This document shows, piece after piece, positions 6,446 to 35,204 of a stretch of 64,000 nucleotides of DNA. A program made the translations under genes and the position numbers. Position 1 is the first letter of the stretch, and each line of letters opens with the position of its first letter. The notes beneath the pieces are model-generated. The model made no database searches. It had not been told where the DNA came from and was given only the letters and a program-made list of their open reading frames with translations. This DNA is from Herbiconiux ginsengi (GTDB lineage: Bacteria > Actinomycetota > Actinomycetes > Actinomycetales > Microbacteriaceae): positions 1,522,960 to 1,586,959 of the forward strand of contig NZ_FNPZ01000001.1 of the NCBI RefSeq assembly GCF_900107435.1, given 5' to 3'.

Positions 6446-6501
6446 GAGTCGCCAAGACACGCCGCAACGAGCTCGCGGGTAGCGGCGTGTTGTGGCGAAT
6501 C
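6446..6501 (+). repeat. 56-base palindromic element, copy 1 (intergenic)
   Basis: The element begins GAGTCGCCA and ends TGGCGAATC, with an inner inverted repeat ACACGCCGC/GCGGCGTGT. It lies between the convergent ends of bkdC and paaG, so it could also act as a bidirectional terminator hairpin. Its right half (GTAGCGGCGTGTT then TGGCGA) matches copy 2 at 27532 almost base for base. Length and end sequences match copies 2-4. Confidence 0.75.
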
Positions 6502-6517
6502 GGTGAGGGTGGCGGCG

Positions 6518-7297
6518 TCAAGCGCGAGCGGCGCCGAAGACGGGGCGGCGCTTCTGCTGGAAGGCGGCGAAACCCTCGCGGTAGTCGTCGCTGAGGCAGA
6601 GGGCGCCCTGCGCCTCGTTCTCGTCGTCGAGCGACGCCCAGAGGCCGATCCGCTCGTCGCGGAGGCTCTGCACGAGTTCCTTGCTCGCCAGGAACGCGCC
6701 CGTCGGGCCCTGCGCCACCCGGGCCACGCGCTCGCGGGTGAAGGTATCGAGCTCGCCGGCGGGCACGACGCGGCTGAACAAGCCGGATGCGACGGCCTCC
6801 GCCCCCGACATCAGCTCGCCCGTGTAGACGAGGTCGAGCGTGCGGTGGGCGCCGAGCCGCTCGAAGAAGAGGGCGTGGCCACCAGAGTCGAGCGTGGCGC
6901 CGAGGTTCGCGAAGGGCGAGCCGATCTTCGCCGTGTCGGCCACGTAGACGACGTCGGTCGCGATGAGGAGGCCGAGGCCCACGCCGAGACAGGCGCCGGT
7001 GGCCATCGCGAAGGTCGGGGCAGGGAAGCCTGCCATCCGGCGCAGCACGGGAGTGACGACGTCGGCGAGGTAGCCGCGGGCGTCATCGGTCGCCGGGTCG
7101 ACCTGCGAGATGTCGCGGCCGGCGGAGAACGCCCGGCCCTCGCCGCGGAGGAGAAGGGCGCGCACGCCGGCCGCCTCGGCCTCGGCGTAGGCCGCCGCCA
7201 GTTCGGCCAGGGCGGTCTCGTCGACGGCGTTGAGCTTCGCCGGCGCGTTCAGCACGACCTCGGCGATGTCGTCGGCGATGGTGAGTTCGACTGTCAT
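6518..7297 (-). CDS. paaG: Enoyl-CoA hydratase/isomerase, probable 1,2-epoxyphenylacetyl-CoA isomerase
   Basis: A crotonase-fold protein of 259 residues. The CoA-binding/oxyanion segments are AFSAGRDIS (about residues 59-67) and GACLGVGLGLLIATD. PaaG-type isomerases use an aspartate in a PDAGG-like motif; here TLDSGGHALFFERLG keeps that aspartate. A hydratase would be expected to have glutamates at these positions. PaaG turns ring 1,2-epoxyphenylacetyl-CoA into the oxepin. It follows paaABCDE in the same direction after 81 bases, with a GAGGAG ribosome site, supporting the assignment. An ordinary enoyl-CoA hydratase remains possible. Confidence 0.78.
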   Translation of the reverse strand: MTVELTIADDIAEVVLNAPAKLNAVDETALAELAAAYAEAEAAGVRALLLRGEGRAFSAGRDISQVDPATDDARGYLADVVTPVLRRMAGFPAPTFAMATGACLGVGLGLLIATDVVYVADTAKIGSPFANLGATLDSGGHALFFERLGAHRTLDLVYTGELMSGAEAVASGLFSRVVPAGELDTFTRERVARVAQGPTGAFLASKELVQSLRDERIGLWASLDDENEAQGALCLSDDYREGFAAFQQKRRPVFGAARA

Positions 7298-7378
7298 GAC
7301 GCTCCTCGGTGTGGCGGTGGTGCGCGTGGTGGTGGTGCGGGATGGCGACGGTGCGGTGCGATGCGATCGGGCGCCTCG

Positions 7379-8509
7379 CTAGGTGTCGTAGTCGACGCTC
7401 ACCGCGGCCGAGACGGGGATCGACTGGCAGGTGAGTACGTAGCCGCGCGCGAGCTCGTCGGGTTCCAGCGCGTAGTTCTCGACCATGTCGACCTCACCCT
7501 CGACGAGCTTGGCGCGGCACGTGCCGCACACCCCGCCCGCGCAGGCGAAGGGCACGTCGCGGCGCACCCGCAGGGCCGCGTTGAGGATGCTCTCCCGCGA
7601 GTGCTCCGGACTCGTGACGGTGGCGGTGGTGCCGTCGAGACGGAACCGGATGGTGTGCACGGCGTCGCCCGCATCCGTCGTCACCGGCCGGCCCGCTTGA
7701 CCGGTGGGGCGCTCCGGCCGCCCCGTGGTGAACAGCTCGTAGCGCACGGCGTCGGGCGGCACACCGAGGGCCGCGAGCTCGTCGCGACACAGCTGCACCA
7801 GATCGAACGGCCCGCAGAGGAACCACTCGTCGACCGTGGCCGGCTGCAGCAGCGACGTGAAGACGGCCCGCACCCGCGCGGCGTCGAGGCGCCCGGAGAG
7901 CAGCTCGGAACTGCGCTTCTCCCGCGTCAGCACGTGATGCAGGGCGAGCCGGGCGGTGTAGCGGTCTTTGAGGTCGGCGAGTTCGTCGACGAACATCGTG
8001 TCCATCGTCGTGCGGTTCGTGTAGACGAGCTCGAACACGGAGGCCGGGTTCTCCTGCAACGTGTGCTCGATCAACGACATCATCGGCGTGATGCCCGACC
8101 CCGCCGCCACGCCGACGAAGTGCCCCGGGGAGTCGAGCGGGGCGTGCGCGGTGAAGCGCCCCTCCGGGCTCATCACCTCGAGCTGCATCCCCGCGGCGAG
8201 GTTGTCGACGGCCCAGGTGGAGAACACCCCACCGAGGTCGCGCTTGATGCCCACCTTCAACGATCCGCGGCCGGGCGCCTGGCAGATCGAGTAGCTTCGG
8301 CGCACGTCTTCACCCTCGAGGCTGGTGCGGATGGCGATGTACTGCCCGGGCGCGTAGTCGTAGGCGTCGGCGAGATCGGCGGGCACCTCGAACGACACCT
8401 CGATCGCGTCGTCGGTGAGCGGGCGCACCTCCGAAACGGTGAGGGTGTGGAAGTCGGCACGGCGGCGCCCGGTCGGAGGGGCCTCGGCCGGGGTCTCGGT
8501 GAGCGACAT
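7379..8509 (-). CDS. paaE: Phenylacetyl-CoA 1,2-epoxidase, reductase subunit PaaE
   Basis: A 376-residue electron-transfer protein. An FAD-binding and NAD(P)H-binding ferredoxin-reductase region (YAPGQYIAIRT, then RSYSICQAP; later GVAAGSGITPMMSLIEHTL) is followed by a plant-type [2Fe-2S] ferredoxin domain. The ferredoxin cysteines are in CAGGVCGTC and LTCQS near the C terminus. It passes electrons from NADPH to the PaaA di-iron centre. The start codon overlaps the paaD stop (TGATG), so I use the ATG at 8509 rather than longer in-frame alternatives. Confidence 0.93.
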   Translation of the reverse strand: MSLTETPAEAPPTGRRRADFHTLTVSEVRPLTDDAIEVSFEVPADLADAYDYAPGQYIAIRTSLEGEDVRRSYSICQAPGRGSLKVGIKRDLGGVFSTWAVDNLAAGMQLEVMSPEGRFTAHAPLDSPGHFVGVAAGSGITPMMSLIEHTLQENPASVFELVYTNRTTMDTMFVDELADLKDRYTARLALHHVLTREKRSSELLSGRLDAARVRAVFTSLLQPATVDEWFLCGPFDLVQLCRDELAALGVPPDAVRYELFTTGRPERPTGQAGRPVTTDAGDAVHTIRFRLDGTTATVTSPEHSRESILNAALRVRRDVPFACAGGVCGTCRAKLVEGEVDMVENYALEPDELARGYVLTCQSIPVSAAVSVDYDT

Positions 8510-9105
8510 CAGTGTTCCTTGAAGTGGTCGAACGGCTCCTGGCAGCGCTGGCAGACGTAGAGCGCCTTGCACGAAGTGGAGCCGAAACGGGAGAGCTGGC
8601 GGGTGTGCATCGACCCGCAGCGGGGGCAGCGGATGCCGAGCCCGAGACTCACGGTGCCGCCGCCCCGGCGAGGGCCCGGGGCCGCGATGCCGTACTCCTC
8701 GAGCTTGGTGCGGCCCTCGTCGCTCAGCCAGTCCGTGGTCCACGCCGGGGCGAGCACCACCTTCACCGAGACGTCGTCGTAGCCGTTGCCGTGCAGCACA
8801 CCCACGATGTCGTCGCGCATGGCGTCGACGGCGGGGCAGCCCGAGTAGGTGGGTGTGATCTCGACCGTGACCGAACCGGAGGCGGTGGCGAAGGTGACCC
8901 CGCGCAGCACGCCGAGGTCTTCGATGGTGAGCACGGGCACCTCGGGGTCGACGACCGTGGCCGCCAGATCCCAGATGGCGCGCTCGGCCTCGTTCAACGG
9001 GCGGGGCCGGGCCTGACGCTCGAGGACGGCGTCGGCGTGCACGATGTGCCCGCGCTCCACCCCTCCGTGCCCGCGTGTCTCGCCCAGGGTCGACGCGGAA
9101 GTCAC
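8509..9105 (-). CDS. paaD: PaaD, maturation factor of the phenylacetyl-CoA epoxidase (DUF59/MIP18 type)
   Basis: A 198-residue protein. The MIP18/DUF59 domain is at about residues 40-125 (VVDPEVPVLTIEDLGVLRG and TYSGCPAVDAM). A C-terminal zinc-ribbon-like region with CPRC, SCKALYVC and QRC follows. PaaD is thought to help assemble the iron centres of the epoxidase. The GTG start overlaps the paaC stop (GTGA) and the stop overlaps the paaE start. The conserved Cys in YSGCPA matches the family's iron-sulfur transfer site. Confidence 0.9.
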   Translation of the reverse strand: MTSASTLGETRGHGGVERGHIVHADAVLERQARPRPLNEAERAIWDLAATVVDPEVPVLTIEDLGVLRGVTFATASGSVTVEITPTYSGCPAVDAMRDDIVGVLHGNGYDDVSVKVVLAPAWTTDWLSDEGRTKLEEYGIAAPGPRRGGGTVSLGLGIRCPRCGSMHTRQLSRFGSTSCKALYVCQRCQEPFDHFKEH

Positions 9106-9971
9106 CAGGTCACCCCCGGATGTGCGCGGGCCAGCACCTGCATCTCGGCCAGCATCGGGCCGAGCGCCTCGGTGTGCCGGCCCTCGCGGCCGCCGCCGCG
9201 CGCGAACGGGACGGTGGGCACGGTCAGGCCGGCGTCGGTGATGAGGCGGGGAACGATCTCGTCGAAGGCGGAGCGCAACGGTTCGAGATCGACGACGACA
9301 CCGCCGAGAGTGCCGCCGTCGGTGACGTCGAGCGGCACGTGAGCCACGCCGCCCTCCGGCAAGCCGGTCTCCGCCCGGAAGAGCTCGCCCACGAACGGCC
9401 ACATCGCGTCCAGCCCCCGCTGCATCCGCCGGTGCGACTCCTCGGTGCCGAGACCGAGGCGCAACAGCCACTGCACGCTGTGGTCGAGGTGGTAGTCGAC
9501 CTCCTTGGTGGCCTTCGCGGCGATGGCCGCGAGCGTCGGGTCGGTCGAGCGCCGTAGTGCTCGGTAGAGCCCGTCGAAGTAGACCGAAGCGAAGAGCTGC
9601 CGCGCGATCGTGTGCGCGAAGTCGCCGTTGGGCTGCTCGAACAGCTGCCGGTTACGGAATTCGGATTCGCCGCGGAAGTAGGCGAGGTCGTCTTCGCTCG
9701 TGCCCCACGCCGAGCCGGCGTAGGTCAGGAGACTGCGGGCGTGGCCGAGCAGGTCGAGCCCGATGTTGCCGAGCGCGACGTCTTCTTCGAGCTCGGGAGC
9801 GTGGGTGATCCACTCCCCGAGGCGGTGCGCCAGCACGAGCGCGTCGTCGCCGAGACCCAGTGCATAGAGAGCGACCGGTTCGGACGCGACCGTCTCGTCG
9901 GCCGCGATCGACTCGGCGATGGCTTCGGGGGTGAGTGCCGTGGAGGCAGACCGATTGGTCGTGGGGATCAC
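9102..9971 (-). CDS. paaC: Phenylacetyl-CoA 1,2-epoxidase, structural subunit PaaC
   Basis: A 289-residue ferritin-like helical subunit that pairs with PaaA. Recognisable stretches are LGDDALVLAHRLGEWITHAP, ALGNIGLDLLGHARSLLTYA and KEVDYHLDHSVQWLLRLG. PaaC lacks a complete di-iron site and acts as the structural partner. The GTG start overlaps the paaB stop by four bases (GTGA) and its stop overlaps the paaD start, so the operon is translationally coupled throughout. Confidence 0.93.
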   Translation of the reverse strand: MIPTTNRSASTALTPEAIAESIAADETVASEPVALYALGLGDDALVLAHRLGEWITHAPELEEDVALGNIGLDLLGHARSLLTYAGSAWGTSEDDLAYFRGESEFRNRQLFEQPNGDFAHTIARQLFASVYFDGLYRALRRSTDPTLAAIAAKATKEVDYHLDHSVQWLLRLGLGTEESHRRMQRGLDAMWPFVGELFRAETGLPEGGVAHVPLDVTDGGTLGGVVVDLEPLRSAFDEIVPRLITDAGLTVPTVPFARGGGREGRHTEALGPMLAEMQVLARAHPGVTW

Positions 9972-10276
9972 AGGTGCGGCACCGCCTCGGACGCGGTGTA
10001 GTAGACGGCGTGCCGGTATTCCTTGCCCTCGGGCGACTCGAAGAACTCGCCCTTCGCATCCGGATCCGACGCCGTGATGGCGGAGGCGGGCACGACCCAG
10101 ATGGAGACCCCCTCGCCGCGGCGGGTGTAGAGGTCGCGGGCATTGCGCACGGCCATGGTGGAGTCGGGCGCGTGCAGCGAACCGGCGTGCACATGGGAAA
10201 GGCCGCGCGAGGGGCGGAGGAAGACCTCCCAGAGCGGCCAGATCTCGCGGGTGCCGGAGTCGCCAGGGCTGGTCAT
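9968..10276 (-). CDS. paaB: Phenylacetyl-CoA 1,2-epoxidase subunit PaaB
   Basis: A small subunit of 102 residues that bridges PaaA/PaaC pairs in the epoxidase. The hallmark [20 protein letters not shown] lies near residues 14-33, followed by [14 protein letters not shown]-type sequence (here [14 protein letters not shown]) and the Val-Pro-Ala strand. The start ATG overlaps the paaA stop (ATGA) and the stop overlaps the paaC GTG. Length is typical of the family. Confidence 0.93.
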
Positions 10277-11310
10277 GACGCGATCTTCTCCGGTGCCGCG
10301 GACGCACGCGAGGCCGCGGATGCCGTCGCCTGCTTGTCGGCGTAGGCGCGGGCCGCTTCGCGCACCCAGGCCCCGTTCTCGTGAGCGGTGCGGCGGCGCG
10401 ACACGCGAACGGCGTTCGCCGGGCCGCGACCCGCAAGCACCTCGGAGAACTCGGTCCAGTCGAGATCGCCGAAGTCGTAATGGCCGCGCTCCTCGTTCCA
10501 CCGGATGGCCGGATCGGGCAGGGTGACGCCGAGGATCTCGGCCTGCGGCACGAGCATGTCGACGAAGCGCTGCCGCAGCTCGTCGTTCGAGAAGCGCTTG
10601 ATGTTCCAGGCCATCGACTGCTGCGAGTTGGGCGAGTCGGCATCCGGCGGCCCGAACATCATCAACGCCGGGGCGTACCACCGGTTCACCGACTCCTGGG
10701 CCATCGCCCGCTGCTCCTCGGTGCCGTTCATCAGGGCGAGCAGGATCTCGAAGCCCTGTCGCTGGTGGAACGACTCCTCTTTGCAGATGCGCACCATCGC
10801 CCGGCCGTAGGGCCCGTAGGAGGCGCGGCACAGGGGCACCTGGTTGCAGATCGCCGCGCCGTCGACGAGCCAGCCGATCGACCCCATGTCGGCCCAGGTG
10901 GGGGTGGTGTAGTTGAAGATGGACGAGTACTTCGCGCGGCCCGTGATGAGCTGGTCGAACATCTCCTCGCGGTCGATGCCGAGCGTCTGCGCGGCGGAGT
11001 AGAGATACAGGCCGTGGCCGGCCTCGTCTTGCACCTTGGCCATCAGGATCGCCTTGCGCTTGAGGCTCGGGGCGCGGGTGATCCAGTTGCCCTCGGGCTG
11101 CATGCCGATGATCTCCGAATGGGCGTGCTGGGAGATCTGGCGGATCAGCGTCTTGCGATAGGCCGCCGGCATCCAGTCGGTCGGCTCCACCCGGCTCTCA
11201 CTTGCGAGCAGCTCTTCGAAACGACGCCGACCGTCTCCCTGGGGGTCGTCGTCGGCGTCTCGCACGCCGCCGGTCTCGGTCGCGGCCGCCCGCGCGGTGG
11301 GGGTGACCAT
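10273..11310 (-). CDS. paaA: Phenylacetyl-CoA 1,2-epoxidase, catalytic subunit PaaA
   Basis: The catalytic subunit (345 residues) of the multicomponent monooxygenase that epoxidises the ring of phenylacetyl-CoA. The two di-iron ligand motifs are visible as [15 protein letters not shown] (about residues 91-105) and [14 protein letters not shown] (about 170-183). It is first in the paaABCDE operon, with a GAGGAG ribosome site before the ATG. A PaaR-like operator lies 35 bases upstream in the gap shared with the divergent tetR-type gene paaR. Confidence 0.95.
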
Positions 11311-11344
11311 GGAGCCTCCTCGTCGGCGACGAACTCATCACCGT

Positions 11345-11366
11345 ACTTACCGATCGTTCAGTAAAC
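11345..11366. promoter_or_regulatory. PaaR-like operator in the paaA-paaR divergent gap
   Basis: The site ACTTACCGATCGTTCAGT (followed by AAAC) is an imperfect palindrome and the best match among the four sites in this island. It sits between paaA and the divergent TetR gene, so the repressor would control both the catabolic operon and itself. Release by phenylacetyl-CoA is known for PaaR homologues and inferred here. Confidence 0.78.
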
Positions 11367-11421
11367 GATAACACCGTCGGATGCGCGGGACAAGCGTCGT
11401 CGTCGGCTAAAGTCGGGAGCC

Positions 11422-12060
11422 ATGAGCCAGCCACTTCCCGCCGATCAGCCCGCACCGCGCGGCGGCAACGGGCGTTCGGGCCGGGCTCCCTACGACCTCG
11501 CGACGGTGCTCGACATCGCGGTGGCGGCGTTCAACGAGTTCGGCTACGACGCCACCTCGATGGGCACGCTCGCGGAACGGCTCGGCACCAGCAAGTCGGC
11601 CATCTACTACCACGTCAGCGGCAAGGCAGACCTGCTGCGGCTCGCGCTCGAACGCGGACTCGGCGAGCTGGAAGGGGTGCTCTCGTTGCCCGGCGCGCAA
11701 GAGGGACCGGCGGATGCGCGACTCGAGTTCGTGCTGCGCGGCGCAGTTCGTGTGCTCTGCGAAGAGCTGCCCTCGGTGACGTTGCTGCTGCGCCTGCGCG
11801 GCAACACCGATCTCGAGCGGGAGGCCCTCGCCCGGCGCCGCGAGTTCGATCATGCCGTGGCGGCGCTGGTCGACGAGTCGCGTGCCGACGGCACCTTGCG
11901 CGCCGACGTCGATGCCCGCACCACCACGAGGCTCATCTTCGGCATGATCAACTCGATCGTCGAGTGGTACAAGCCCGGTGGGCCGCTCACGCCGGAGCAG
12001 CTGGCCGACGACGTCATCACCGTCGCGTTCGAGGGCCTGCATCCGCGCCCCTCGGCCTGA
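11422..12060 (+). CDS. paaR: TetR-family repressor of phenylacetate catabolism
   Basis: A 212-residue TetR protein. The DNA-binding helix-turn-helix is at about residues 27-72 (ATSMGTLAERLGTSKSAIYY then HVSGKADLL). The C-terminal helical ligand domain ends in FGMINSIVEWYKPGGPLTPE, typical of the acyl-CoA-responsive FadR/PaaR/KstR-like branch. It is divergent from paaA with a palindromic operator between. The same motif precedes paaI, paaZ/thioesterase and paaF, so this protein is the likely regulator of all four units. Effector (phenylacetyl-CoA) is inferred from characterised PaaR proteins. Confidence 0.88.
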   Translation: MSQPLPADQPAPRGGNGRSGRAPYDLATVLDIAVAAFNEFGYDATSMGTLAERLGTSKSAIYYHVSGKADLLRLALERGLGELEGVLSLPGAQEGPADARLEFVLRGAVRVLCEELPSVTLLLRLRGNTDLEREALARRREFDHAVAALVDESRADGTLRADVDARTTTRLIFGMINSIVEWYKPGGPLTPEQLADDVITVAFEGLHPRPSA

Positions 12061-12091
12061 ACCGTCGCCGCGTGCCGCGGCGGTGGGCCTG

Positions 12092-14290: not shown

Positions 14291-14308
14291 CAGAGGGCCT
14301 TTCTCAGA

Positions 14309-14330
14309 GCTTGCCGAACGGTCAGTAGCA
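14309..14330. promoter_or_regulatory. PaaR-like operator between paaZ and a divergent thioesterase gene
   Basis: The site CTTGCCGAACGGTCAGTAG keeps the CCG-NN-CG-NN-CAGT core of the other paa operators, with one change in the left arm (ACCG to GCCG). It lies 18 bases upstream of the paaZ start and about 30 bases upstream of the divergent gene, so it can control both. Confidence 0.65.
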
Positions 14331-14361
14331 TGGAGTGACCCCCCAGAGACGAGGACGCGGG

Positions 14362-14772: not shown

Positions 14773-14822
14773 GCGGCGCTCGGCCGGCGCAACGAGCGCG
14801 ACGCCGAGCCTGGTCGCGGTGT

Positions 14823-16483: not shown

Positions 16484-16503
16484 GGGATCCTCGTGTGATT
16501 CGT

Positions 16504-16529
16504 ACTTACCGACCATTCGTTCAGTAAGG
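16504..16529 (-). promoter_or_regulatory. PaaR-like operator of paaFH, with a longer spacer
   Basis: The left arm ACTTACCG and right arm CGTTCAGTAA are identical to those of the paaA site. They are separated by six bases (ACCATT) instead of two. The site is 21 bases upstream of the paaF start. The altered geometry may weaken binding or alter how repressor dimers sit. Confidence 0.65.
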
Positions 16530-16578
16530 ATGTCATGGAGTACTGAGACGGTCAAGACCGGCGGCCCCGAGACGGAGA

Positions 16579-26444: not shown

Positions 26445-26445
26445 G

Positions 26446-27501
26446 TCAGGCTCCCCGCCCGGAGTCCGCACCGGCGCCGTTACCGGGGCCGGAGCCAGAA
26501 CCAGTGCTGGAGCCGCTCCCGCCGGCGGTCCGCGCGTTCACCCCGCCACCGATGCCACTCGCGGGCGGCGATCCGGCTCCGGCTCCGGCACCGGCATCCG
26601 TCGCCGCCATCGCCGCCGCCGGGGCGGGCGCGGGGAGCACCGCGCGCCTGCGCGAGCTGAGCACCGCCCACACCAGGAAGCCGATCGCCGCGAGCGCCAG
26701 AACGCCCACGCCGCCGACCGCGCCGAGCAGGATCGGCACGAGGTTGCCGTCGTCGGAGGCAGCCGTGGGCGCCGCGATGATCGTGGTGGAGACCGGTGCG
26801 GGGGCATCCGTCTCGAGCGAGGTGTTCGCGCTTCCGGCGGCGGCCGCGGCGGCAGCTGCGGCATCCGCGGCCGCCTTCTCCGCCTCGGCGGCTGCCGCGG
26901 CATCCGCGTCGCCGGAGTAGAGATGCTGGAACGAGATCGGCGTGAAGCTCTCGTTGCTCGGATTCACCACGCCGTGCGCCCCGATGGTGATGATGCCGCA
27001 CTGCACGGCGAGACAGTCGACCGTGGTGACGTCGCCGTTGCGGTCGTAGGATTCGAAGGAGGCGCCCGGGATCTTCATGGAGGCCGACCAGCTGCCATCG
27101 GCCGACACCTCGCCGCCGTTCGCGGCGTACTCGGTCGAGGAGCCCGGGAAGCTGACGAACACCTGGTACCCCACCGGGTTCGCCTCGTCGTCGTAGACGT
27201 AGCGGTAGGTCGATCCGGTCGCGCCGCCCTGGCTGGGCGCCCACGCGCCGCCGTCGACCCAGCCGAAGAACACGTAGATGCCGCCGAAGCCGCTCGGGAT
27301 CGACTGGAATCCGCTGCCCGTCACCGTCACGTCGGTGAGGTAGTCCGGATCGGCGACGCCCACGAGCTCGGGCTGTCCGGTCACGGAGACGCGCACCGAC
27401 CCGGCCGCCTGCGCCGGCGCCGCGGGCCCGGCCACGGCCGTCCCGAGCACGGCCGCCACCGCGACTCCCAGTGCGGCGAGCATCTTCGTCGGTCGGTTCA
27501 T
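26446..27501 (-). CDS. Secreted, membrane-anchored HtaB-like protein of the heme uptake operon
   Basis: A 351-residue protein. A signal peptide (residues 1-32, ending AQA) is followed by a beta-rich domain (about 35-190) with VTVTGSGFQSIP, GGIYVFFGWVDGGAWAPS and a Cys pair in DCLAVQCG. An Ala-rich coiled segment (about 195-225), a transmembrane helix (LLGAVGGVGVLALAAIGFLV) and a Gly/Ser/Ala-rich tail follow. The TGSGF/YVxFG module recurs in the two separately transcribed HtaA proteins. The gene overlaps hmuV by ATGA with a GAGGAG site. Heme-binding or docking at the membrane is inferred from the operon; no function is proven by sequence. Confidence 0.72.
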   Translation of the reverse strand: MNRPTKMLAALGVAVAAVLGTAVAGPAAPAQAAGSVRVSVTGQPELVGVADPDYLTDVTVTGSGFQSIPSGFGGIYVFFGWVDGGAWAPSQGGATGSTYRYVYDDEANPVGYQVFVSFPGSSTEYAANGGEVSADGSWSASMKIPGASFESYDRNGDVTTVDCLAVQCGIITIGAHGVVNPSNESFTPISFQHLYSGDADAAAAAEAEKAAADAAAAAAAAAGSANTSLETDAPAPVSTTIIAAPTAASDDGNLVPILLGAVGGVGVLALAAIGFLVWAVLSSRRRAVLPAPAPAAAMAATDAGAGAGAGSPPASGIGGGVNARTAGGSGSSTGSGSGPGNGAGADSGRGA

Positions 27502-28502
27502 GGGGTCTCCTCGAGAGTGGACACGCACATCGACTCGCCAGATTCTGACGGAATGGCGGCGGTCGTAGCGGCGTGTTTTGGCGATTCGATTGCGGGCTCG
27601 GTGGCGCGACGGGGCAGCACGATCGCGGTGCCCGTGACGGGATGGCGGATGACCTCGACCTCCACCTCGTAGACGGAACCCAGCAGGGCCGGCGTGAGCA
27701 CCGCATCCGGCGCCCCGTCGGCGACCACGCGACCCGCCGAGATCAGCACGATGCGGTCGGCGTAGGCGGCGGCGAGGCTGAGGTCGTGCAGCACCACCAC
27801 CACGCAGTCGCCCGCGCGGGCACGATCCCGCGCGATGCGGAGCACGTCTTCCTGGTGCCGCAGGTCGAGCGCGGCGGTGGGTTCGTCGAGCAGCAGGATG
27901 CCCGTCTCCTGCGCCAGGATGCGCGCCAGCGACGCCCGCGCCCGCTCGCCGCCCGAGAGCGACGGCAGCGGCCGATCGCGGAACCGGGTGGTCTCGGTGA
28001 GCGCGATCGACTCCTCCACCACGCGGTCGTCGTCGGCGTCGCGGGGCGTGCCCTGCCAGGGCGCCCGCCCCATCGCCACGACCTCGCGCACGGTGAAGGG
28101 GAAGAACACGCCGTTCTGCTGCTGCAGCACCGCGCGCCGCCGCCCGAGTTCGCGCAGGCTCCAGTCGGCGAGCGGGCGCCCGGCGATCTCCACCGCTCCG
28201 GTCGTCACGGCCTGATCGCCGGTCACCACCGAGAGCAGCGTCGACTTGCCGGCGCCGTTCGGCCCGATCAGCGCCACGACCTCGCCCGGCGCGGCGTCGA
28301 ACGACACGTCGTCGAGGATGCGGGTGCCGCCGATCTCGACGCTCGCCCGCTGCACCCGCAGGGCCGGTTCGCCGGAGCCGAGCGGCGCATCCGTCGCACC
28401 TGCCATCGAATCGCCGATGATCGCGCTTTCACGGCCCGCCATTCCGACGAATTCTGGCGACTCGACGGATGCGGTCGCTGCGCGACGCGAGAACACGCTC
28501 AT
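27498..28502 (-). CDS. hmuV: Heme ABC transporter ATP-binding protein
   Basis: An ABC ATPase of 334 residues with Walker A GPNGAGKST, signature LSGGERARASLARI, Walker B GILLLDEPTAALD and switch VLHDL. The FhuC/HmuV-type family is usually about 260 residues. This one has about 50 extra residues at the N terminus and about 35 at the C terminus. Both extensions contain a 56-base palindromic element read in frame (28408-28463 and 27532-27587). It energises heme import by HmuTU. Both ends overlap neighbours by ATGA. Confidence 0.93.
   Translation of the reverse strand: MSVFSRRAATASVESPEFVGMAGRESAIIGDSMAGATDAPLGSGEPALRVQRASVEIGGTRILDDVSFDAAPGEVVALIGPNGAGKSTLLSVVTGDQAVTTGAVEIAGRPLADWSLRELGRRRAVLQQQNGVFFPFTVREVVAMGRAPWQGTPRDADDDRVVEESIALTETTRFRDRPLPSLSGGERARASLARILAQETGILLLDEPTAALDLRHQEDVLRIARDRARAGDCVVVVLHDLSLAAAYADRIVLISAGRVVADGAPDAVLTPALLGSVYEVEVEVIRHPVTGTAIVLPRRATEPAIESPKHAATTAAIPSESGESMCVSTLEETP
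27532..27587 (+). repeat. 56-base palindromic element, copy 2 (inside the hmuV 3' end)
   Basis: The element begins GACTCGCCA and ends TGGCGATTC. It shares its left half with copy 3 (GAATGGCGG and flanks) and its right half with copy 1 (GTAGCGGCGTGTT). Read from hmuV it encodes the tail AIESPKHAATTAAIPSESGE near the C terminus. Confidence 0.75.
28408..28463 (-). repeat. 56-base palindromic element, copy 3 (inside the hmuV 5' end)
   Basis: On the minus strand it begins GAGTCGCCAGAATTCGTCGG and ends CGGCGATTC; it aligns with copy 2 over the left 30 bases. In hmuV it encodes ESPEFVGMAGRESAIIGDS within the extra N-terminal tail, just ahead of the conserved ATPase domain. Confidence 0.75.
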
Positions 28503-29623
28503 CCCCAGCCCCCTGCCTTCTTGCGGGTGCGGCGGAGCAGCCAGAAGAAGAAGGGTCCGCCGATGAGTGAGGTGAGCAGGCCGATCGGCAGGTCGGCCAT
28601 CGGGATGGCCGTGCGCGCCACCAGGTCGGCGGCCACGAGCAGCACCGCGCCGCCGAGCGTCGAGGCGATGAGCAGCGGGAGATGCGCCGGGCCGATGATC
28701 ATGCGCATGAGGTGCGGGATGACGAGACCCACGAACGCGATGATGCCCACGAAGGCCACCGCCCCGCCCACGAGCAGGGCGACGAGTACGATCGACACGA
28801 TCCGCAGCGCCTCCACGTTCACGCCGAGGTGCCGCGCCGCCTTCTCGCCGAGCGAGAGCAGGTCGAAGCGGCGCGAGAGCACGAGGGCGACCGCGATGCC
28901 GACCACCACGACCGGGAGCACCACGAGAACGTCTTGCCAGCGCGACCCGTTGAGGCTGCCGAGCTGCCAGAACACGATCGCCTCGCGCGACTGCGTGTCG
29001 GCCAGGAACATGAACAGCGCCAGCCCCGCCCCCGCGAAGGCGTTGACGGCGATGCCCGTGAGCACGAGGGTCACCACCTCGGTCTTGCCGTTCGCGCGCG
29101 AGACGGCGTAGACGAGCAGGGTGGCGAGGAGGCCAGTCACGAAGGCGGCGAACGCGATGGTCCAGTCGCCGAGGAAGTTCAGGCCCAGCACGATCGTGGC
29201 GGCCGCCCCGAGCGCCGCGCCCGAGCTCACGCCCACGACGCCGGGCTCGGCGAGCGGATTGCCGAAGATGGCTTGCATGATCATGCCGCTGGCCGCGAGC
29301 GCGGCGCCCACCAGCACGGCCATGGCCACGCGGGGGAAGCGGATGGTCCAGAGCGCGCTGTCGCCGTTCGGATGCGACGGCAGCGGCCAGATCGTCACGC
29401 CGATGCGGTGCAGGATCGAGCCGAGCACCTCGTCGGGAGCGATGGCGAGCTGCCCGGTTCCGGCTGCCACGAGCGAGACGACCACGAGGGCGACGCCCAG
29501 CACCACGAACAGCACCGCCCGCCGCCCCACGCCCGCGCGCCGCGGCAAGGGGTCGACGCGCGCCTCGAGGCTCCCGCCCGCGCCGACCCCGTCGCCGCCC
29601 ACCGTGGGAGTGACGCGCGTCAT
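28499..29623 (-). CDS. hmuU: Heme ABC transporter permease
   Basis: A 374-residue FecCD-family permease with about ten hydrophobic segments. Family motifs are RFPRVAMAVLVGAALAASGM, then FGNPLAEPGVVGVSSGAALG, and near the C terminus FVGLVIPHLMRMIIGPAHLP, which couples to the ATPase. The N terminus has a 35-residue Gly-rich cytoplasmic lead. It overlaps hmuT and hmuV by ATGA at each end. It forms the membrane channel for heme delivered by HmuT. Confidence 0.94.
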   Translation of the reverse strand: MTRVTPTVGGDGVGAGGSLEARVDPLPRRAGVGRRAVLFVVLGVALVVVSLVAAGTGQLAIAPDEVLGSILHRIGVTIWPLPSHPNGDSALWTIRFPRVAMAVLVGAALAASGMIMQAIFGNPLAEPGVVGVSSGAALGAAATIVLGLNFLGDWTIAFAAFVTGLLATLLVYAVSRANGKTEVVTLVLTGIAVNAFAGAGLALFMFLADTQSREAIVFWQLGSLNGSRWQDVLVVLPVVVVGIAVALVLSRRFDLLSLGEKAARHLGVNVEALRIVSIVLVALLVGGAVAFVGIIAFVGLVIPHLMRMIIGPAHLPLLIASTLGGAVLLVAADLVARTAIPMADLPIGLLTSLIGGPFFFWLLRRTRKKAGGWG

Positions 29624-30753
29624 CGGGCCGCACCCGACGCGTCCGGGGCGTAGATCGCACGGGCGAGGGCGTCGAGCACGGAGGCCGAACGCGGGCCGAA
29701 GCTGAGGATCTCGTAGTCGCTCATGTCGACGATGCGCCGGTTCGCCCCGGCCGGCGTCTCGGCGACCGCCGGGATGCGCTCGAGCAGTCCGTCGACGCCG
29801 CCCACCGACTCGAGGCCTTTCGTCATCATCAGCAGGATGTCGGGCTGCGCCTTCACGAGCGCTTCGGCCGTCATCGGCCGCATGCCCTGCCAGCCGATCT
29901 CGTCTGCGACGTCGATTCCGCCGAGCGCGCGGATCAGCGCATCCGCCCCCGACTCCTCGCCGAAGATGTAGTAGACGCCGGCGTTGCCGCGCACGTAGAG
30001 GAACAGGATGCGCGGCCGGTCGGCCGGGTCGGCCGGCGTCACCGCCGCGATCTCCGCGATCTCGGCCTCGATCTCCCCGGTCACCCGCGACGTCAACTCC
30101 GCGCCGGCCGCAGGAACCCCGAGCGCCGCCGCCACCAGACCCACGATCTCGCCCACGTTGTCGAGGTTGCGCTCGGGGGTCGTGACCACCACCGGGATGC
30201 CGGCTTCGCGCATCTGCAGCACGACGTCCCACGGCCCGATCGAGGAGTCGGTGATGATGACGCTCGGGTTCAGCCCGAGGATCGCCTCGCCGTTCAACTC
30301 GTGACCGTTCTGCGTGACCAGTGGCAGCTCGGATGCGCCGGCGAAGCTCGTCGAGGTGTCGCGCCCCACCACGCTGTCGCCGAGTCCCAGGCCGAAGACC
30401 GTGGCGGCGAGGGAGCCGTAGATGTCGAGTGCGAGGATGCGGCTGGTGTCGGTCACGGTGACCTCGGTGCCCTGGTTGTCGGTGACGGTCGCGGGGAGGG
30501 CGGGTGCGGCATCCGTCGTCACCGGAGTGACGCCCACGTCTTCGAGACAGGCGGTCGATTCGCCCTGGTGGGACTTCGGATCGGGCGTGAGCGGCAGGTC
30601 GGCCAGAGCGACGTCGCTCGAGACGCACTGCGCTCCGGCGGAAGCGCCGCTCGCGTTGCTCGAACAGGCGCCGAGGGTGACGGCGGTGGCGAGAGCGAGG
30701 GCGAACGCGACGCCGGAGCGGACGCGTCGGCGGAGGGGGGTGAGAGAGGTCAT
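29620..30753 (-). CDS. hmuT: Heme-binding lipoprotein of the ABC transporter
   Basis: A 377-residue lipoprotein: the signal peptide ends in the lipobox LGAC (cysteine at about residue 30). A class III (helical-backbone) binding-protein fold follows, with RILALDIYGSLAATVFGLGL, GLNPSVIITDSSIGPWDVVL, and FLYVRGNAGVYYIFGEES. The histidine in TQNGHELNGE and the tyrosines in GVYYIFG are candidates for heme ligands. It is first in the hmuTUV-htaB-like-htaA-like operon and lies downstream of a near-consensus iron box. Confidence 0.92.
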   Translation of the reverse strand: MTSLTPLRRRVRSGVAFALALATAVTLGACSSNASGASAGAQCVSSDVALADLPLTPDPKSHQGESTACLEDVGVTPVTTDAAPALPATVTDNQGTEVTVTDTSRILALDIYGSLAATVFGLGLGDSVVGRDTSTSFAGASELPLVTQNGHELNGEAILGLNPSVIITDSSIGPWDVVLQMREAGIPVVVTTPERNLDNVGEIVGLVAAALGVPAAGAELTSRVTGEIEAEIAEIAAVTPADPADRPRILFLYVRGNAGVYYIFGEESGADALIRALGGIDVADEIGWQGMRPMTAEALVKAQPDILLMMTKGLESVGGVDGLLERIPAVAETPAGANRRIVDMSDYEILSFGPRSASVLDALARAIYAPDASGAAR

Positions 30754-30808
30754 CAGTCCGAACTCGTGGGAGGGGCGGGGCGCCGTCGGGCGATCGTCAC
30801 GATCCTAG

Positions 30809-30827
30809 TTAGGTTAGGCTAACCTAG
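30809..30827. promoter_or_regulatory. DtxR/IdeR-type iron box upstream of hmuT
   Basis: TTAGGTTAGGCTAACCTAG matches 18 of 19 consensus positions. It is 56 bases upstream of the hmuT start, the same distance as the box at 20846 is from its gene. It marks the hmu operon as iron repressed. Confidence 0.88.
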
Positions 30828-31013
30828 TCAATTGGCCGGGGGCCTCGCATCCGGCCGCCTCTCGTGCACCGCGTGGAGGGTCCTCGTGCACCCTCCGGCG
30901 GGTTACACTCGTCACGTGGGCGCATCCGGGCGGATCCGGAATTCGTAGGGGATGACGAAGCTCTGCCCACGAGCAGGCTTGGTGGGGCTCTGCTCGGACG
31001 GAAAGAGACTGTC

Positions 31014-32603
31014 GTGAGCGACCCCTCTGAGCGATCCGCGATCTCCCAGGAACTGCAGGATGCCGTCTCCCGCGCCGATTGGGATGCCGTGCAGACGATC
31101 GTGGAGCGCAACTGGTCGGCACTCATCATCGCCGATCCCGCCGTCATCCGCGACGCCGTCGCCGCCCTGCCCGACGCCGTCGTGGCCGCCAACCCGCGCT
31201 GGATCTCGGCGCAGAACTACCTCAGCTATCTTCCTGTCGGCGACGCCCCGCGGCCCCTGCGCTTTCGCGACACCGCGCCACCCGGACTCTCCTCGGCGCT
31301 CATCGACGTGCTCGTGGAGCTCACCAGCCGAGCCGCCGCTGCGCGTGTCGCGGGGCGTCTGGACCGGGCCGTGCGGTGGGTCGACGAAGCGCGTGACGCC
31401 CTCGGCGACGCCACCGACGAGGCGGTCGTGGAGATGCAGTACTCCCTGCCCGACCTGCACAGCCAATGGGGCAAGGTGCGCGAGGCGGCCGGCCAGAGCA
31501 CCGAGGCGTTCCGCGAATACCAGGATGCCCACGACCTCGCCGCCGTGACCGGCAACGAGCTGATCTACCAGAGCTCGGCGGGCAGTCTCGCCTGGCTGCA
31601 CACCATCGCCGGCCAGACCGCCGAGGCGGAGGCGTGGCTCGACCGGGTTCCGCGCGGCGATCCGCCCGCGGAGGCGCCCGATTGGACCTCGAAGCGCTAC
31701 GGCATCACCGCTCACCTCAGCCGCGCCCTCGGACACATCGACCGGCTCGAATACGACGAGGCCCGCGAGGTTCTCGACGTCTACGCCGACGTGGCGAAGG
31801 CGCCCGACTACTGGGCCATCATCCTGTATCTGCGGGCCCGCCTCGCCCGGCACACGGGCGACGCCTGGCGGGTGCTCACGCAGATCGACTCGGCGGTGCA
31901 GAGCCGCCCGCCCGAGCTCACCGCGAACGGCATCAGCGCGCACTTCGTCGCCGTGGCGCGCGCCGAGCTGTACATCGAGCTGGAGCAGCCGGCGCGAGCG
32001 CGGCAAGCACTCGGCGGGCAGCGGTCGACGCCCCCGTCGACCTACTACCTGCAGCTCGAGCAGGCGAAGATCGACATGCTCACGGGCGACCTCCAAGCGG
32101 TGACGCGCATCGTCGAGCCGTTGCTCACCGTGGCGACGTCGGCGCAGCGGGTGATCGCCGAAGCCCTCGTGCTGCATTCCGTGACGCAGCTGCGGGGCGG
32201 ATGGGAACGGGAGGCGGGCGAAGCCTTCCAGCAGGCCCTGGCGCTGATCGAGTCGGCGCGGTTGTATTCGGCGCTGACCGTCATCCGCAGGGGCGACTTC
32301 GACGCGCTCGTGGCGCTGGTTCCGGCCGGGGCACTCGCCGGGGCGGCCGGGCCGGCGCTCGACCGGGTGCGGGAACGGGGGAGCTTCCTGCCCGAGATGG
32401 ACTCGACGGTTCCGCTCTCGCCGCGCGAACGATCGGTGCTCGCCGAACTGGTCTCCGGCGCATCCGTCGCCGAGATCGCGAACCGGCTGTTCGTGAGTCA
32501 GAACACCGTGAAGTCGCAGCTGCGGAGCGTCTACCGCAAGCTCGGTGTGGCGAACCGCGCCGAGGCCGAGCAGGCGGTCGGCCGCCTCGGCCTGCTCGAC
32601 TGA
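31014..32603 (+). CDS. LuxR-family regulator with TPR-like helical body
   Basis: A protein of about 529 residues (GTG start, GGAAAGAG upstream). The C-terminal LuxR helix-turn-helix is at about residues 465-529 (LSPRERSVLAELVSGASVAE, then LFVSQNTVKSQLRSVYRKLG). The remainder is helical and TPR-like, as in MalT-type regulators. It lacks the usual N-terminal NB-ARC/ATPase domain, so it resembles only the signal and DNA-binding end of that family. It is divergent from hmuT but has no iron box on its side. Target and ligand are not apparent. Confidence 0.82.
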   Translation: MSDPSERSAISQELQDAVSRADWDAVQTIVERNWSALIIADPAVIRDAVAALPDAVVAANPRWISAQNYLSYLPVGDAPRPLRFRDTAPPGLSSALIDVLVELTSRAAAARVAGRLDRAVRWVDEARDALGDATDEAVVEMQYSLPDLHSQWGKVREAAGQSTEAFREYQDAHDLAAVTGNELIYQSSAGSLAWLHTIAGQTAEAEAWLDRVPRGDPPAEAPDWTSKRYGITAHLSRALGHIDRLEYDEAREVLDVYADVAKAPDYWAIILYLRARLARHTGDAWRVLTQIDSAVQSRPPELTANGISAHFVAVARAELYIELEQPARARQALGGQRSTPPSTYYLQLEQAKIDMLTGDLQAVTRIVEPLLTVATSAQRVIAEALVLHSVTQLRGGWEREAGEAFQQALALIESARLYSALTVIRRGDFDALVALVPAGALAGAAGPALDRVRERGSFLPEMDSTVPLSPRERSVLAELVSGASVAEIANRLFVSQNTVKSQLRSVYRKLGVANRAEAEQAVGRLGLLD

Positions 32604-32765
32604 TCGCCCCGCCGCGCCGCGCCGGCGCCCCGTCGCGCGGTGGGCCGCCCGCCGCCCCGGAGGCAGATCGCGCTTCGGGAGGATGCTCCGTCCTCCCGAA
32701 CGTGCGGATGGCCGTGATCTCCTCCCGAACGGAGGCCGGGTCGAGGTGCCTCCCGGCGACCGAGG

Positions 32766-33794
32766 CTACTCGGCGGGGCCGTCGGTGGGGGCCGGAGTGG
32801 GCGCGGGGGTCGAGCCGGTGCCCGATCCGTCAGACCCGCCGGTCCCCGATCCGTCAGTCCCCGTCGCATCCTCACCGGCCGCCGCCGACGCCTTCGTGAA
32901 GACGTCGGTGATGAAGGTGTTCAGCGCCTCGGTGTCGTCGAGGGCTCCGGTGTAGGCGGTGCCGTCGATGACCACGAGCGGAACCGTGGTGAGAGACGTG
33001 ACGTCGGAGTTCGGGATGGTCTTCTGCGCCCGCGCGGTGGAGTTCGCCACCCAGTCGTCGAACTCGTTTCCCGTGATGCAGCTCGCGACGGCGGGATCGG
33101 TGACCCCCGCCTTCTGCACGAGCGCGACGAGGTCGTCGTTGCTCAGGCCGCCGTCGGGCAATGTGGATTGCGCGGCGACCAGTGCGTTGTGCACGACGAG
33201 CGTCGCATCCGGAGTCGTGTTCGCCACGCAGGCGATGGTGTTCGCGGCGCGGGTGGCGTAGCTGTCGGAGCTGCCGGCGCCCTCGAGGGCGACAGGGTGC
33301 AGCTCGAGGCTCGCGTAGCCGGCAGAGACGTACGACTGCAGGGCCGATCCGTTCGCGGTCTCGAACTTCGCGACGTCGGGGCTCGAGTAGTCGACGTATT
33401 CGGTGACCCGCAGCACGGTCGAGGTGTCGAGGTCGGAGGCGACGGGCTGCGCATCCGGCTGGATGGCAGCGGTTCGGGTGGCGGTGGCCGGCGGTGGCGT
33501 CGCCCCTTCGGCCGTCGAGGCGGCCGACGGATCGCCGGTGAAGAGGATGCCGTCGCTCAGCATGTTGAGCGGTCCGACGAAGGTGGCACGGATGCCGCTG
33601 TAGACCGCCCAGCCGGTGCCGGCGAGTGCGAGCACGCCGACCGTGATGAGGCTCGTGATGAGCACGACGCGGTTGCGCTTCTTGCGCCGCTGCTCCTCCT
33701 CGCGACGGATGCGTGCGATCTCGCGGGAGAGCGCCTGGCGGTCCTTCTTCGAGAGCCCCTCGTACATGCTCTTGTCGGACTTCGCTGGGCTCAT
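32766..33794 (-). CDS. Membrane-anchored DsbA/thioredoxin-fold protein lacking the CxxC
   Basis: A 342-residue protein. The charged cytoplasmic head (residues 1-43, SKKDRQALSREIARIRREEE) is followed by one transmembrane helix (about 44-66) and an extracytoplasmic DsbA-like domain (about 115-300), then a Gly/Ser/Thr/Pro tail. The strand and helix where DsbA proteins have CPxC reads VTEYVDYSSPDVAKFE, so both active-site cysteines are absent. The cis-proline region is kept (TTVPLVVIDGTAYTG). Two other cysteines (IACVAN, ASCITG) are present. Oxidoreductase activity of the normal kind is unlikely; a binding or chaperone role is possible. Confidence 0.8.
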   Translation of the reverse strand: MSPAKSDKSMYEGLSKKDRQALSREIARIRREEEQRRKKRNRVVLITSLITVGVLALAGTGWAVYSGIRATFVGPLNMLSDGILFTGDPSAASTAEGATPPPATATRTAAIQPDAQPVASDLDTSTVLRVTEYVDYSSPDVAKFETANGSALQSYVSAGYASLELHPVALEGAGSSDSYATRAANTIACVANTTPDATLVVHNALVAAQSTLPDGGLSNDDLVALVQKAGVTDPAVASCITGNEFDDWVANSTARAQKTIPNSDVTSLTTVPLVVIDGTAYTGALDDTEALNTFITDVFTKASAAAGEDATGTDGSGTGGSDGSGTGSTPAPTPAPTDGPAE

Positions 33795-33902
33795 GCCGCG
33801 GGTGCTCCTTGCTCGCTGGGATCGACGGCCGGTGTCGTGCCGGATGCGACGGATAGACGCTAGGGAGGCAGTCTATGAGCCCGCTATGGATTGAGTGGGA
33901 AA

Positions 33903-35204
33903 ATGGCGCACATGGTTCTTCCGCGCGTCGACACCGTCGTCACCTATCCCTCCGGTGCTGTGGCCTCCTCGGGGGTCGTGGTTCACGTCTCGGCTCTCGA
34001 CGCCGGGCGCACGGCGGTGCTGCTCGACGAGACGGCGTGCCATCCGGTCGATGCGGCCTGGCCCGACCAGGGGGCGGATCGGGCGACGCTCACGGTGGGC
34101 GATCGGGTCTTCCCCGTCGTCAACTGCGTGGTGGGGGCGACGGATGGAGCGCAGCTGTTCCTCGGCTCCGCTGTTCCGGTGCGCCCCGGCGCCGAGGGCT
34201 GGGCATTCGTGGTGGCGCACGTGCTCGACGCCTCGTCCGCTCCTTCCACCCAGTCGCCAAGAAGTGACGGAATCACGCCGTCGAATGCGGCGGATTCTGG
34301 CGACTCGACGGCGCCAGGCGGCGACGATTCGGGTGGGCCGCTCGCGGAGGGCGCGACGGCGCGCGTCGAGGTCGACGCCGCGTATCGGCGTGGGCTGTCG
34401 GCGGGGCACACCGCCTGCCATCTGGCGTCACTCGCGCTCAACGAGGCGCTCGCCGGTGCCTGGACCAAGGATGTCGCGCGCGACGGCCGCGGCAATCCGA
34501 ACTTCGACCAGCTCGCGATCGAGTCGTCGACGATCGAGGAGAACGGATCGCTCGACGTGTACCGCGTCGGCAAGTCGCTCCGCAAGAAGGGCTTCGCACC
34601 GGCGGTGCTCATGGAGGGTGTGGTGGTTGCCGGGCCCGCCTCCGCGTCCGACCCAGGAGTGGCGTCGGGTGCGTCGGGCACGTCGGGCACGTCGGGGGAG
34701 TGGGGTGCGTCGGGCACGTCGGGTGGGTCGGGCACGTCGGGTGGGTCGGGTGCGTCGGGCACGTCGGGTGGGTCGGGCACGTCGGGCACGTCGGGTGCGT
34801 CGGGCACGTCGGGTGGGTCGGATGCGTCGGGTGCGTCGGGAGAGTCGGGTGCGTCGGGCACGTCGCGAGAGTCGGGTGCGTCCGGCCCGCTCGCCGCGCT
34901 GGCCGCCGAGGTCGACGCCCGACTCGCGGAGTGGTGCGCATCCGGAGCCCTGGTCGAGGTGCGGCAGGATGGCGACGCACGCGGCCTGAGCGGGCGCCGC
35001 ACCTGGACGTGCCACCTTCCCGACGGCGCCGTGAGCATCCCATGCGGCGGGACGCACGTGTCGTCGCTGGCCGAGTTCGCGTCGATCCGGGTCGCATTCG
35101 ACCTGGTCGAGCAGCCCGGCGCCCTCGAACTCCGGATGTGCACGACGGCGACCCTCGCCCCCACCACGTCGCCCGGGGCGACGCTTGCGCCGACGGCGGG
35201 GTGA
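33903..35204 (+). CDS. AlaX-like alanyl-tRNA editing protein with low-complexity insert
   Basis: A protein of about 433 residues related to the AlaRS/ThrRS second additional domain that hydrolyses mischarged tRNA. Both halves of the zinc site are visible: HxxxH in SAGHTACHLASLAL and CxxxH in PCGGTHVSSLAEF. An N-terminal barrel-like part (YPSGAVASSGVVVHV) corresponds to that of AlaX. Between the metal motifs is a run of some 24 Ser-Gly-x triplets (about residues 255-327). A 56-base palindromic element lies earlier in the gene (about 117-135). The NUDIX gene starts three bases after its stop. The start could also be ATG 33912. Confidence 0.78.
   Translation: MAHMVLPRVDTVVTYPSGAVASSGVVVHVSALDAGRTAVLLDETACHPVDAAWPDQGADRATLTVGDRVFPVVNCVVGATDGAQLFLGSAVPVRPGAEGWAFVVAHVLDASSAPSTQSPRSDGITPSNAADSGDSTAPGGDDSGGPLAEGATARVEVDAAYRRGLSAGHTACHLASLALNEALAGAWTKDVARDGRGNPNFDQLAIESSTIEENGSLDVYRVGKSLRKKGFAPAVLMEGVVVAGPASASDPGVASGASGTSGTSGEWGASGTSGGSGTSGGSGASGTSGGSGTSGTSGASGTSGGSDASGASGESGASGTSRESGASGPLAALAAEVDARLAEWCASGALVEVRQDGDARGLSGRRTWTCHLPDGAVSIPCGGTHVSSLAEFASIRVAFDLVEQPGALELRMCTTATLAPTTSPGATLAPTAG
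34251..34306 (+). repeat. 56-base palindromic element, copy 4 (inside the AlaX-like gene)
   Basis: The element begins CAGTCGCCA and ends TGGCGACTC. Like copies 2 and 3 it has a GACGGAAT-type left part and is read in frame, encoding QSPRSDGITPSNAADSGDS. It lies in a Ser/Thr/Asp-rich linker between the N-terminal barrel and the first metal motif. Confidence 0.72.
34664..34885 (+). repeat. 9-base repeat tract (Ser-Gly-x) in the AlaX-like gene
   Basis: About 24 units of TCGGGNNNG type (TCGGGCACG, TCGGGTGGG, TCGGGTGCG and variants). They encode Ser-Gly followed by Ala, Thr, Gly or Glu. The units are multiples of three, so copy change would lengthen or shorten a flexible linker without breaking the frame. 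Confidence 0.9.

Follow-up and report, generated by a model that had tools for sequence, protein, structure and literature searches.

A REPIN-like family of dispersed dyads in Herbiconiux ginsengi and its proposed partnership with small AbiEi-Vsr/EDxHD nucleases

Introduction

Here we describe a family of short dispersed elements, four of which lie in a 64,000-nucleotide stretch of the Herbiconiux ginsengi genome (contig NZ_FNPZ01000001.1, positions 1,522,960 to 1,586,959; hereafter the window), and its association with genes for small nucleases that join an AbiEi-type region to a Vsr/EDxHD-type domain. The family, termed F1 after the 56-bp type of the window, is a dispersed dyad resembling REPINs (paired repetitive extragenic palindromic, or REP, sequences), and is most likely the recognition element of these nucleases, with dyad-nuclease-dyad as the putative autonomous unit, a reading to which we assign a probability of roughly 0.52. 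The bracketing of nuclease genes by shared repeats, which exceeds that of control genes, suggests a mobile-element partnership unlike the one between REP sequences and their transposase. The origin of many short bacterial repeats is open, and a repeat-bracketed nuclease family would represent a different and testable partner. Such a system would also place AbiEi-MTES_1575/DUF559 fusion genes in a biological context, provide a set of naturally occurring site dialects of a single nuclease fold, and reveal a route by which short DNA may add in-frame linkers to proteins. No paper on this pairing of nuclease and dyad was found in the literature covered, which did not extend to subscription papers and preprints.

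The comparisons below mainly involve the genome that holds the window (G000, 4.85 Mb), a sister species (G001), and Microbacterium strain Root180 (G308); L numbers denote individual sequence stretches. Gene models come from our own codon-usage caller.

Anatomy of the dyad

The original prediction had described four elements of exactly 56 bases with common ends, and these are present in the window at 6446-6501, 27532-27587, 28408-28463, and 34251-34306 (copies 1 to 4), the last starting with CAGTC rather than GANTC. With at most one mismatch allowed, the pattern GANTCGCC-N40-GGCGANTC matches the window four times against 0.19 expected, a number that none of 100 dinucleotide shuffles reaches. 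Throughout G000, there are 22 exact matches to GANTCGCC-N30..50-GGCGANTC, compared with 2 when the pattern is reversed as a control, and the length is 56 in 19 of the 22, 55 in two, and 64 in one. A sequence-only profile (R1) yielded further copies, with 104 strand-hits at E<=1 in about 50 places, partly belonging to a related 47-bp family (F2). After omission of F2 and poorly ended matches (L034, for example), the curated F1 set comprises 31 copies in G000 and 23 in G001; L109, at 57 nt, was left out of the column counts.

Each F1 element consists of two inverted half-sites of about 24-28 bp, CRYCGANTCGCCA......G.CG..A, flanking an unconserved 8-bp centre. Over 104 half-sites from 52 copies in the two species, the half-site consensus is CRYC-GANTCGCCA-RRW...-G.CG..A, about 28 bp, with CRYC as the outer four bases at both ends (C 0.88, A/G, T/C, C 0.91). 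Conservation runs four bases beyond the predicted 56-mers on each side (CRYC...GRYG, about 64 bp), extending the window copies to 6442-6505, 27528-27591, 28404-28467, and 34247-34310. Two alternative words, A (AARACACGCCGCAACG) and B (AGATTCYGWCGGAATG), are found repeatedly in the arms along with intermediates, and they combine as A-A, A-B, and B-B; copy 1 is of the A-A type, copy 2 of the A-B type, and copy 3 has one atypical arm. The shared interiors that had been noted pairwise among the four copies are these alternative half-site words in different combinations.

The four elements had also been called palindromes, a misleading term. Across the 52 copies, arm-arm pairing stays near the level expected from independent draws, as at columns 3/54 (20/52 against 18.9 expected); columns 10-12 show a slight excess of pairing (36, 28, and 39 copies, with 30.3, 24.2, and 34.9 expected), and columns 20 and 23 show a deficit (12 and 19 copies, with 20.4 and 25.6 expected) that favours unlike arms. 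Because the arms pair near independence, we read F1 as a probable double-stranded recognition dyad and not as a hairpin. An RNA hairpin was rejected on the same pairing values, and an Rfam scan of the window returned no family at the gathering score. From copy to copy the F1 centre varies at random (in G000 its identity is 0.35, with 0.33 expected), and every one of the 78 listed half-site matches (40 in G000 and 38 in G001, against 1 and 0 in the controls) falls within a dyad.

Other repeats occur in the same genomes. The F2 family of G000 (L036-L051, e.g., L038 2001-2047) has the form CGCCAAAATCCGCCC-N17-GGGCGGATTTTGGCG with outer CCTCCTCGCGACC arms and a length of 47 bp, lies mostly between convergent genes, and differs from F1 in that its arms seem, by eye, to covary. 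An intergenic repeat of about 165 bp is found in many G000 and G001 stretches (L095 101-300, L018 449-596, L032 2077-2243, and others), often near F1.

Nuclease genes between shared repeats

At G000 C2:1379931-1381005, two F1 copies flank a 288-aa gene with an MTES_1575/DUF559 domain (MTES_1575 E 5.8e-8, under Pfam's cut-off for that family; DUF559 at its cut-off). The orthologous interval of G001 holds about 35 unaligned bases in place of about 1.1 kb, and a 79.6%-identical homologue, likewise between two F1 copies, resides at a non-orthologous place in G001 (C1:191586-192661). In G000, the positional counterpart of this second unit is only 45% identical and lies between an F1 copy and a different dyad, F3. 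The F1-nuclease-F1 unit hence occupies different places in the two species, a pattern compatible with transposition and with horizontal gain.

The arrangement extends to other members of the nuclease family. We compared the 300 bp on either side of genes of 100-600 aa, using 58 small nuclease genes from PF18741 matches in G000 and 12 further genomes (61 of 71 matches were used, the 10 omitted all lying in frames longer than 1000 aa). At a score of at least 16, a threshold chosen after the scores were known, the two flanks share a repeat in 21/58 nuclease genes compared with 0/71 neighbour genes (Fisher 4.5e-9), 2/329 genes from other G000/G001 stretches, and 49/3306 mismatched nuclease flank pairs. 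All 21 bracketed genes fall among the 38 that encode at least 230 aa. Under alternative gene calls with different start choices, the counts are 15/31 nuclease genes and 0/30 controls. The flank repeats are gene-specific, many are palindromes or dyads, and the downstream repeat begins 0-20 bp past the stop codon in 13/21 cases.

Several flank repeats also recur elsewhere in their own genomes, as judged from samples of 200-240 kb per genome (about 5%), of which the G000 sample is biased toward F1 because it comprises the window and stretches chosen near F1 sites. In these samples the F1 flank repeat is found at 7 places in G000 and, with a G001 query, at 1 in G001; the F4 family recurs at 6 places in G000 and 3 in G001, the L198 family at 4 in G001, and the L220 family at 2 in G011. 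The repeat of L154 has one match in the G001 sample. AbiEi-MTES_1575/DUF559 fusion genes are present in each of the 13 genomes searched.

The F4 family of G000 consists of 66-68 bp palindromes, TTTCGGGAGGAG...CTCCTCCCGAAA (L135 8374-8439, L139 1311-1376, L136 18681-18748, and others), and stands on both flanks of the nuclease gene of L155 as well. In G001, a 574-aa gene (L145 14492-16213) has flanks sharing a long inverted repeat (score 65) and may be part of an ordinary transposon.

Domain architecture of the nuclease

The N-terminal region of the nuclease resembles AbiEi (PADLOC 3.8e-15 for the L010 protein; Pfam AbiEi_4 in 15/31 members at E<=0.1), and its C-terminal domain resembles the catalytic domain of I-Bth0305I, a homing endonuclease (3r3p profile, E 4.1e-7). 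Pfam MTES_1575 is matched by 31/31 members at E<=0.1, with L010 itself under Pfam's cut-off, and a PADLOC homing endonuclease model by 11/31. In an alignment of 31 members, S188, E191, and D251 are invariant, and D224 and E235 nearly so. A structure model (mean predicted local distance difference test score, pLDDT, 88.8) matches I-Bth0305I in Foldseek with a probability of 1.00 (template modelling score, TM, 0.71 by target; E 0.015); the top match is Rv2827c, which is weak (E 3.4e-3, TM 0.32), and none reaches E 0.001. As for an AbiEii toxin neighbour, the one adjacent gene scanned (L011:1683-2123) has no Pfam match. The MTES_1575 domain has been described as a Vsr-type restriction endonuclease domain (PMC3710099), and a Caulobacter DUF559 protein as Vsr-like (PMC12907096).

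Both parts of this architecture have relatives whose reported sites resemble F1. AbiEi is reported to bind two inverted half-sites of 23 bp (23-3-23) at the abiE promoter, each predicted to take up a single monomer and best conserved over its outer ~11 bp (PMC3985639), an arrangement close to the 24-8-24 layout of F1; the nuclease N-terminus is homologous to AbiEi. For I-Bth0305I, with which the C-terminal domain is homologous, dimerisation on a target of almost 60 bp has been reported (PMC3943268). F1, with its 24-8-24 layout and strongest conservation near the ends, would be the kind of site expected for an AbiEi-nuclease fusion. There are also distinctions. The AbiEi site is a single toxin-antitoxin operator in that account, whereas F1 is a dispersed family whose candidate protein carries a nuclease C-terminus; I-Bth0305I is an intron-encoded phage enzyme, whereas the genes for the putative nucleases described here are free-standing and often bracketed by gene-specific repeats.

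Conservation, gain, and loss

Orthologous F1 elements occupy 13 sites in G000 and G001, window copies 1 and 4 among them (orthologs L108 and L105, respectively). Twelve pairs were compared gap-free, the 55-nt L108 being omitted from both the F1 table and this count. In these pairs, the arms are identical at 501/576 positions (87%), the centres at 58/96 (60%), and the 300-bp flanks at 71-89%. All 12 pairs agree at columns 2 and 4-9, and 11 or 12 of them at each of the mirror columns (48-53 and 55-56); at the free base of GANTC, by contrast, just 7/12 pairs agree on either side. With motif columns near-invariant and the free base drifting, this pattern amounts to motif-specific purifying selection on the half-sites.

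Presence and absence also differ between genomes. L008 of G000 represents a net 66-base in-frame difference that is missing in G001, with a well-aligned empty site (L059), and the nuclease unit described above has its own empty counterpart. At three positions, F1 in G001 stands against F3 (CATCCGCANG...) in G000, one of them within an HrpA-like gene. Several other empty-site comparisons could not be resolved to single bases, the intergenic DNA being different or carrying another dyad type. In Microbacterium, Root166 has an order of geneX-dyad-geneY-dyad-geneZ (L166, L171), compared with geneX-dyad-geneZ in Root180 (L184); geneY encodes an alpha/beta hydrolase and no nuclease, and the difference is compatible with recombination between dyads. 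The predicted dispersed family is supported by the curated copies of both species (31 and 23), by copies read in frame within genes, and by these differences.

Distribution and genomic position

F1 is narrowly distributed. A profile match at E<=0.001 occurs in 6/16 members of the genus, with the family in number only in G000 and G001, and at least 4/299 genomes of a family-wide sample match at E<=1e-5, a lower bound because few candidates were scored per genome. An exact-pattern scan of named genomes, which may not cover the genome that holds the window or others very close to it, listed four stretches, all from Microbacterium (Root180, Root166, and two of M. trichothecenolyticum); the exact F1 pattern was not found in viral contigs. 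The Root180 dyads, examined at 23 of 24 places (C3:573018 being omitted), have the form GAGTCGCCAAGACACGCCG-N17-CGGCGTGTCTTGGCGACTC with few arm changes; the 17-bp centre is kept in 21/23, with an identity of 0.37 against 0.32 expected.

Intergenic copies lie just past genes, at a median distance from the stop codon of 14 bp in G000, 11.5 bp in G001, and 13.5 bp in Root180, and 21/24, 12/16, and 20/22 scored copies, respectively, are within 50 bp of it. Divergent gaps contain 2/31, 2/22, and 1/23 copies, although they make up 6249 of 20607 bp of gaps of at least 64 bp in the 224 kb surveyed, and a promoter-regulator site was rejected on these counts. The caller places 5/31 (G000) and 4/22 (G001) copies inside genes, and inspection adds L008, which is in frame with the N-terminal part of a flavin adenine dinucleotide (FAD) enzyme. 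Hosts of in-frame copies comprise an HmuV-like ATPase with copies 2 and 3 at opposite ends, the gene at 33960-35204 of the window, a NadB-like FAD enzyme, a LuxR-type AAA regulator, and an HrpA-like helicase (HmuV, NadB, and HrpA being our labels taken from domains).

Comparison with known repeat classes

F1 had been predicted to be a mobile unit like REPs, miniature inverted-repeat transposable elements (MITEs), or Rickettsia palindromic elements, possibly with a REP-associated tyrosine transposase (RAYT). The likeness to REPs and Rickettsia elements as a dispersed family stands, and membership in REP/RAYT or in classical MITEs does not. No Y1 transposase (PF01797) was matched at E<=0.01 in G000 or G001 (0/2 genomes; controls positive in 6/14), there is no surplus of flank matches indicating a target-site duplication for k=2-10 at four offsets, and no longer transposon with F1 ends was found among the 78 listed half-site matches of the two genomes. 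Without RAYT, target duplication, or lone arms, and with no arm-pairing hairpin, both memberships fail.

Like REPIN-RAYT systems (PMC3116915), F1 has a pair of conserved sequences in inverted orientation across a spacer that is less conserved, is dispersed mostly between genes, is long-lived, and has a partner gene flanked by related repeats. It is unlike them in lacking Y1/RAYT in G000 and G001, in arms free of a pairing constraint, in its AbiEi-Vsr/EDxHD nuclease partner, in its in-frame coding insertions, and in its fixed spacing. Instead of the REP tag GTAG (or CGTC) at one end, F1 has CRYC at both ends, of which CGTC is one variant; REPs of the GTAG type have RAYTs, while those of the CGTC type reportedly have no transposase of their own (PMC3733652). 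Rickettsia palindromic elements share in-frame insertion in protein-coding genes (PMC10969869, PMC3733652), and these are about 150 bp long and known from Rickettsia, whereas F1 is a mostly intergenic, independent-arm dyad of 56-64 bp.

Proposed mechanism and alternative explanations

Under the favoured explanation, the nuclease would recognise its own dyad, with its AbiEi-type N-terminus as the DNA-binding part and its homing-endonuclease-like C-terminus as the cutting part, the two inverted half-sites being read independently at a fixed spacing around a free centre. A protein bound to both half-sites may break DNA at or near the dyad, and repair of the break would copy dyads, or the whole [dyad-nuclease-dyad] unit, to new places, solitary dyads then being non-autonomous companions. 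The copy on the 5' flank of the nuclease gene would be a plausible operator, through which the gene may regulate itself, with the other copy shortly past the stop codon. Surviving insertions would be those past stop codons or in frame in linkers, many of them subsequently kept by selection on the half-sites. More tentatively, and with a probability short of even, AbiEi-fused nucleases could constitute a further REP-like system in which each has its own site dialect on both flanks and copying proceeds by break repair rather than transposase chemistry.

Several observations weigh against this explanation. Binding, cleavage, copying, and autoregulation are inferred, and an enzyme able to cut about 30 places in the genome would be expected to be toxic unless kept in check. 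The conservation of old sites would call for a further cause, possibly a host function of the sites or titration of the nuclease, and whole-arm identity between orthologs (87%) is no higher than that of the flanks (71-89%, genes included), so that motif columns alone stand out. Among the nuclease genes, 37/58 have no shared flank repeat at the post hoc threshold, about 6 of the 21 bracketed genes share short stretches only, and 3' palindromes, tried as a mark of nuclease genes, are not enriched (7/31 against 7/30). Furthermore, 6/10 non-F1 flank repeats (L240, L204, L208, L154, L156, L239) have no match in the sample of their own genome, which at about 5% leaves dispersal possible; the L240 repeat has two matches each in the samples of G003 and G000. 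No PF18741 match lies beside the Root180 dyads.

The dispersal of F1, its presence/absence differences, and its in-frame insertions would also fit an ordinary MITE- or REP-like element whose transposase has been lost, with nuclease genes as frequent passengers or as genes sharing its insertion preference, and the F1/F3 replacement at three orthologous positions resembles insertion hot spots. We nevertheless consider this unlikely: target duplication, lone arms, and Y1 transposase are missing in G000 and G001, recent MITE copies should share a centre that is here random between copies, and different nuclease genes are bracketed by different repeats. Less likely still, F1 may be the site of a chromosome-organising protein of the host and conserved for that reason, the nuclease being an incidental association or a domesticated relative. 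The matS, SlmA, and Noc systems exemplify such a role, which would account for the fixed spacing, free centre, and motif-specific conservation. On the dnaA contig of Root180 (C3), where dnaA is at 1260 kb, the dyads occupy the part nearer the origin, with 15 sites between 505 and 1573 kb and none between 0 and 505 kb; the dnaA contig of G001 (2.40 Mb) holds 17 half-site-bearing places, compared with 5 for the second large contig (1.65 Mb). In G001 this unevenness is slight, however, and a pattern relative to origin and terminus is suggestive in Root180 only; the family occurs in few genomes (the 6/16 and at least 4/299 given above), and its conservation of about 50 bits probably exceeds what such a role would need.

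A family of bidirectional transcription terminators at gene 3' ends would explain why intergenic copies cluster just past stop codons, and is favoured by the related F2, which lies mostly between convergent genes and has arms that often change together by eye. For F1 itself, arm pairing near independence, the unlike arms favoured at two columns, and the nine caller-scored copies inside open genes, with L008 as a tenth, make this account highly improbable. The explanation that we favour, recognition by AbiEi-Vsr/EDxHD nucleases, draws on the independence of the arms, the position-specific conservation at orthologous sites, the different places of the F1-nuclease-F1 unit in the two species, the bracketing of these genes above controls, the dispersal of several flank repeats, and the agreement between the dyad layout and the two protein domains.

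Window copies in their gene context and other repeats

Copy 1 lies in a 90-bp gap between the convergent genes at 4883-6427 (+) and 6518-7297 (-). Copies 2 and 3 are both in frame in the HmuV-like ATP-binding cassette (ABC) ATPase gene at 27498-28502 (-), which matches Pfam ABC_tran and adjoins a FecCD permease gene; copy 2 is at the C-terminus and copy 3 near the N-terminus. The C-terminal insert is missing from 4/4 aligned congeners and the N-terminal insert from 5/5, although these HmuV-like proteins, which are 77-83% identical, have divergent ends. Copy 4 is in frame within the gene at 33960-35204 (+). The same gene contains a tandem 9-bp repeat at 34618-34934, with at least 24 overlapping 101-nt registers and a weak collagen-repeat match. 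Finally, a 75-bp near-perfect palindrome (GGTTCGAAACCGCAAACGTCGCGCC...) is located at 46284-46358 of the window between convergent genes, and similar sequences occur at L136 4442-4516 and after the nuclease gene of L147.

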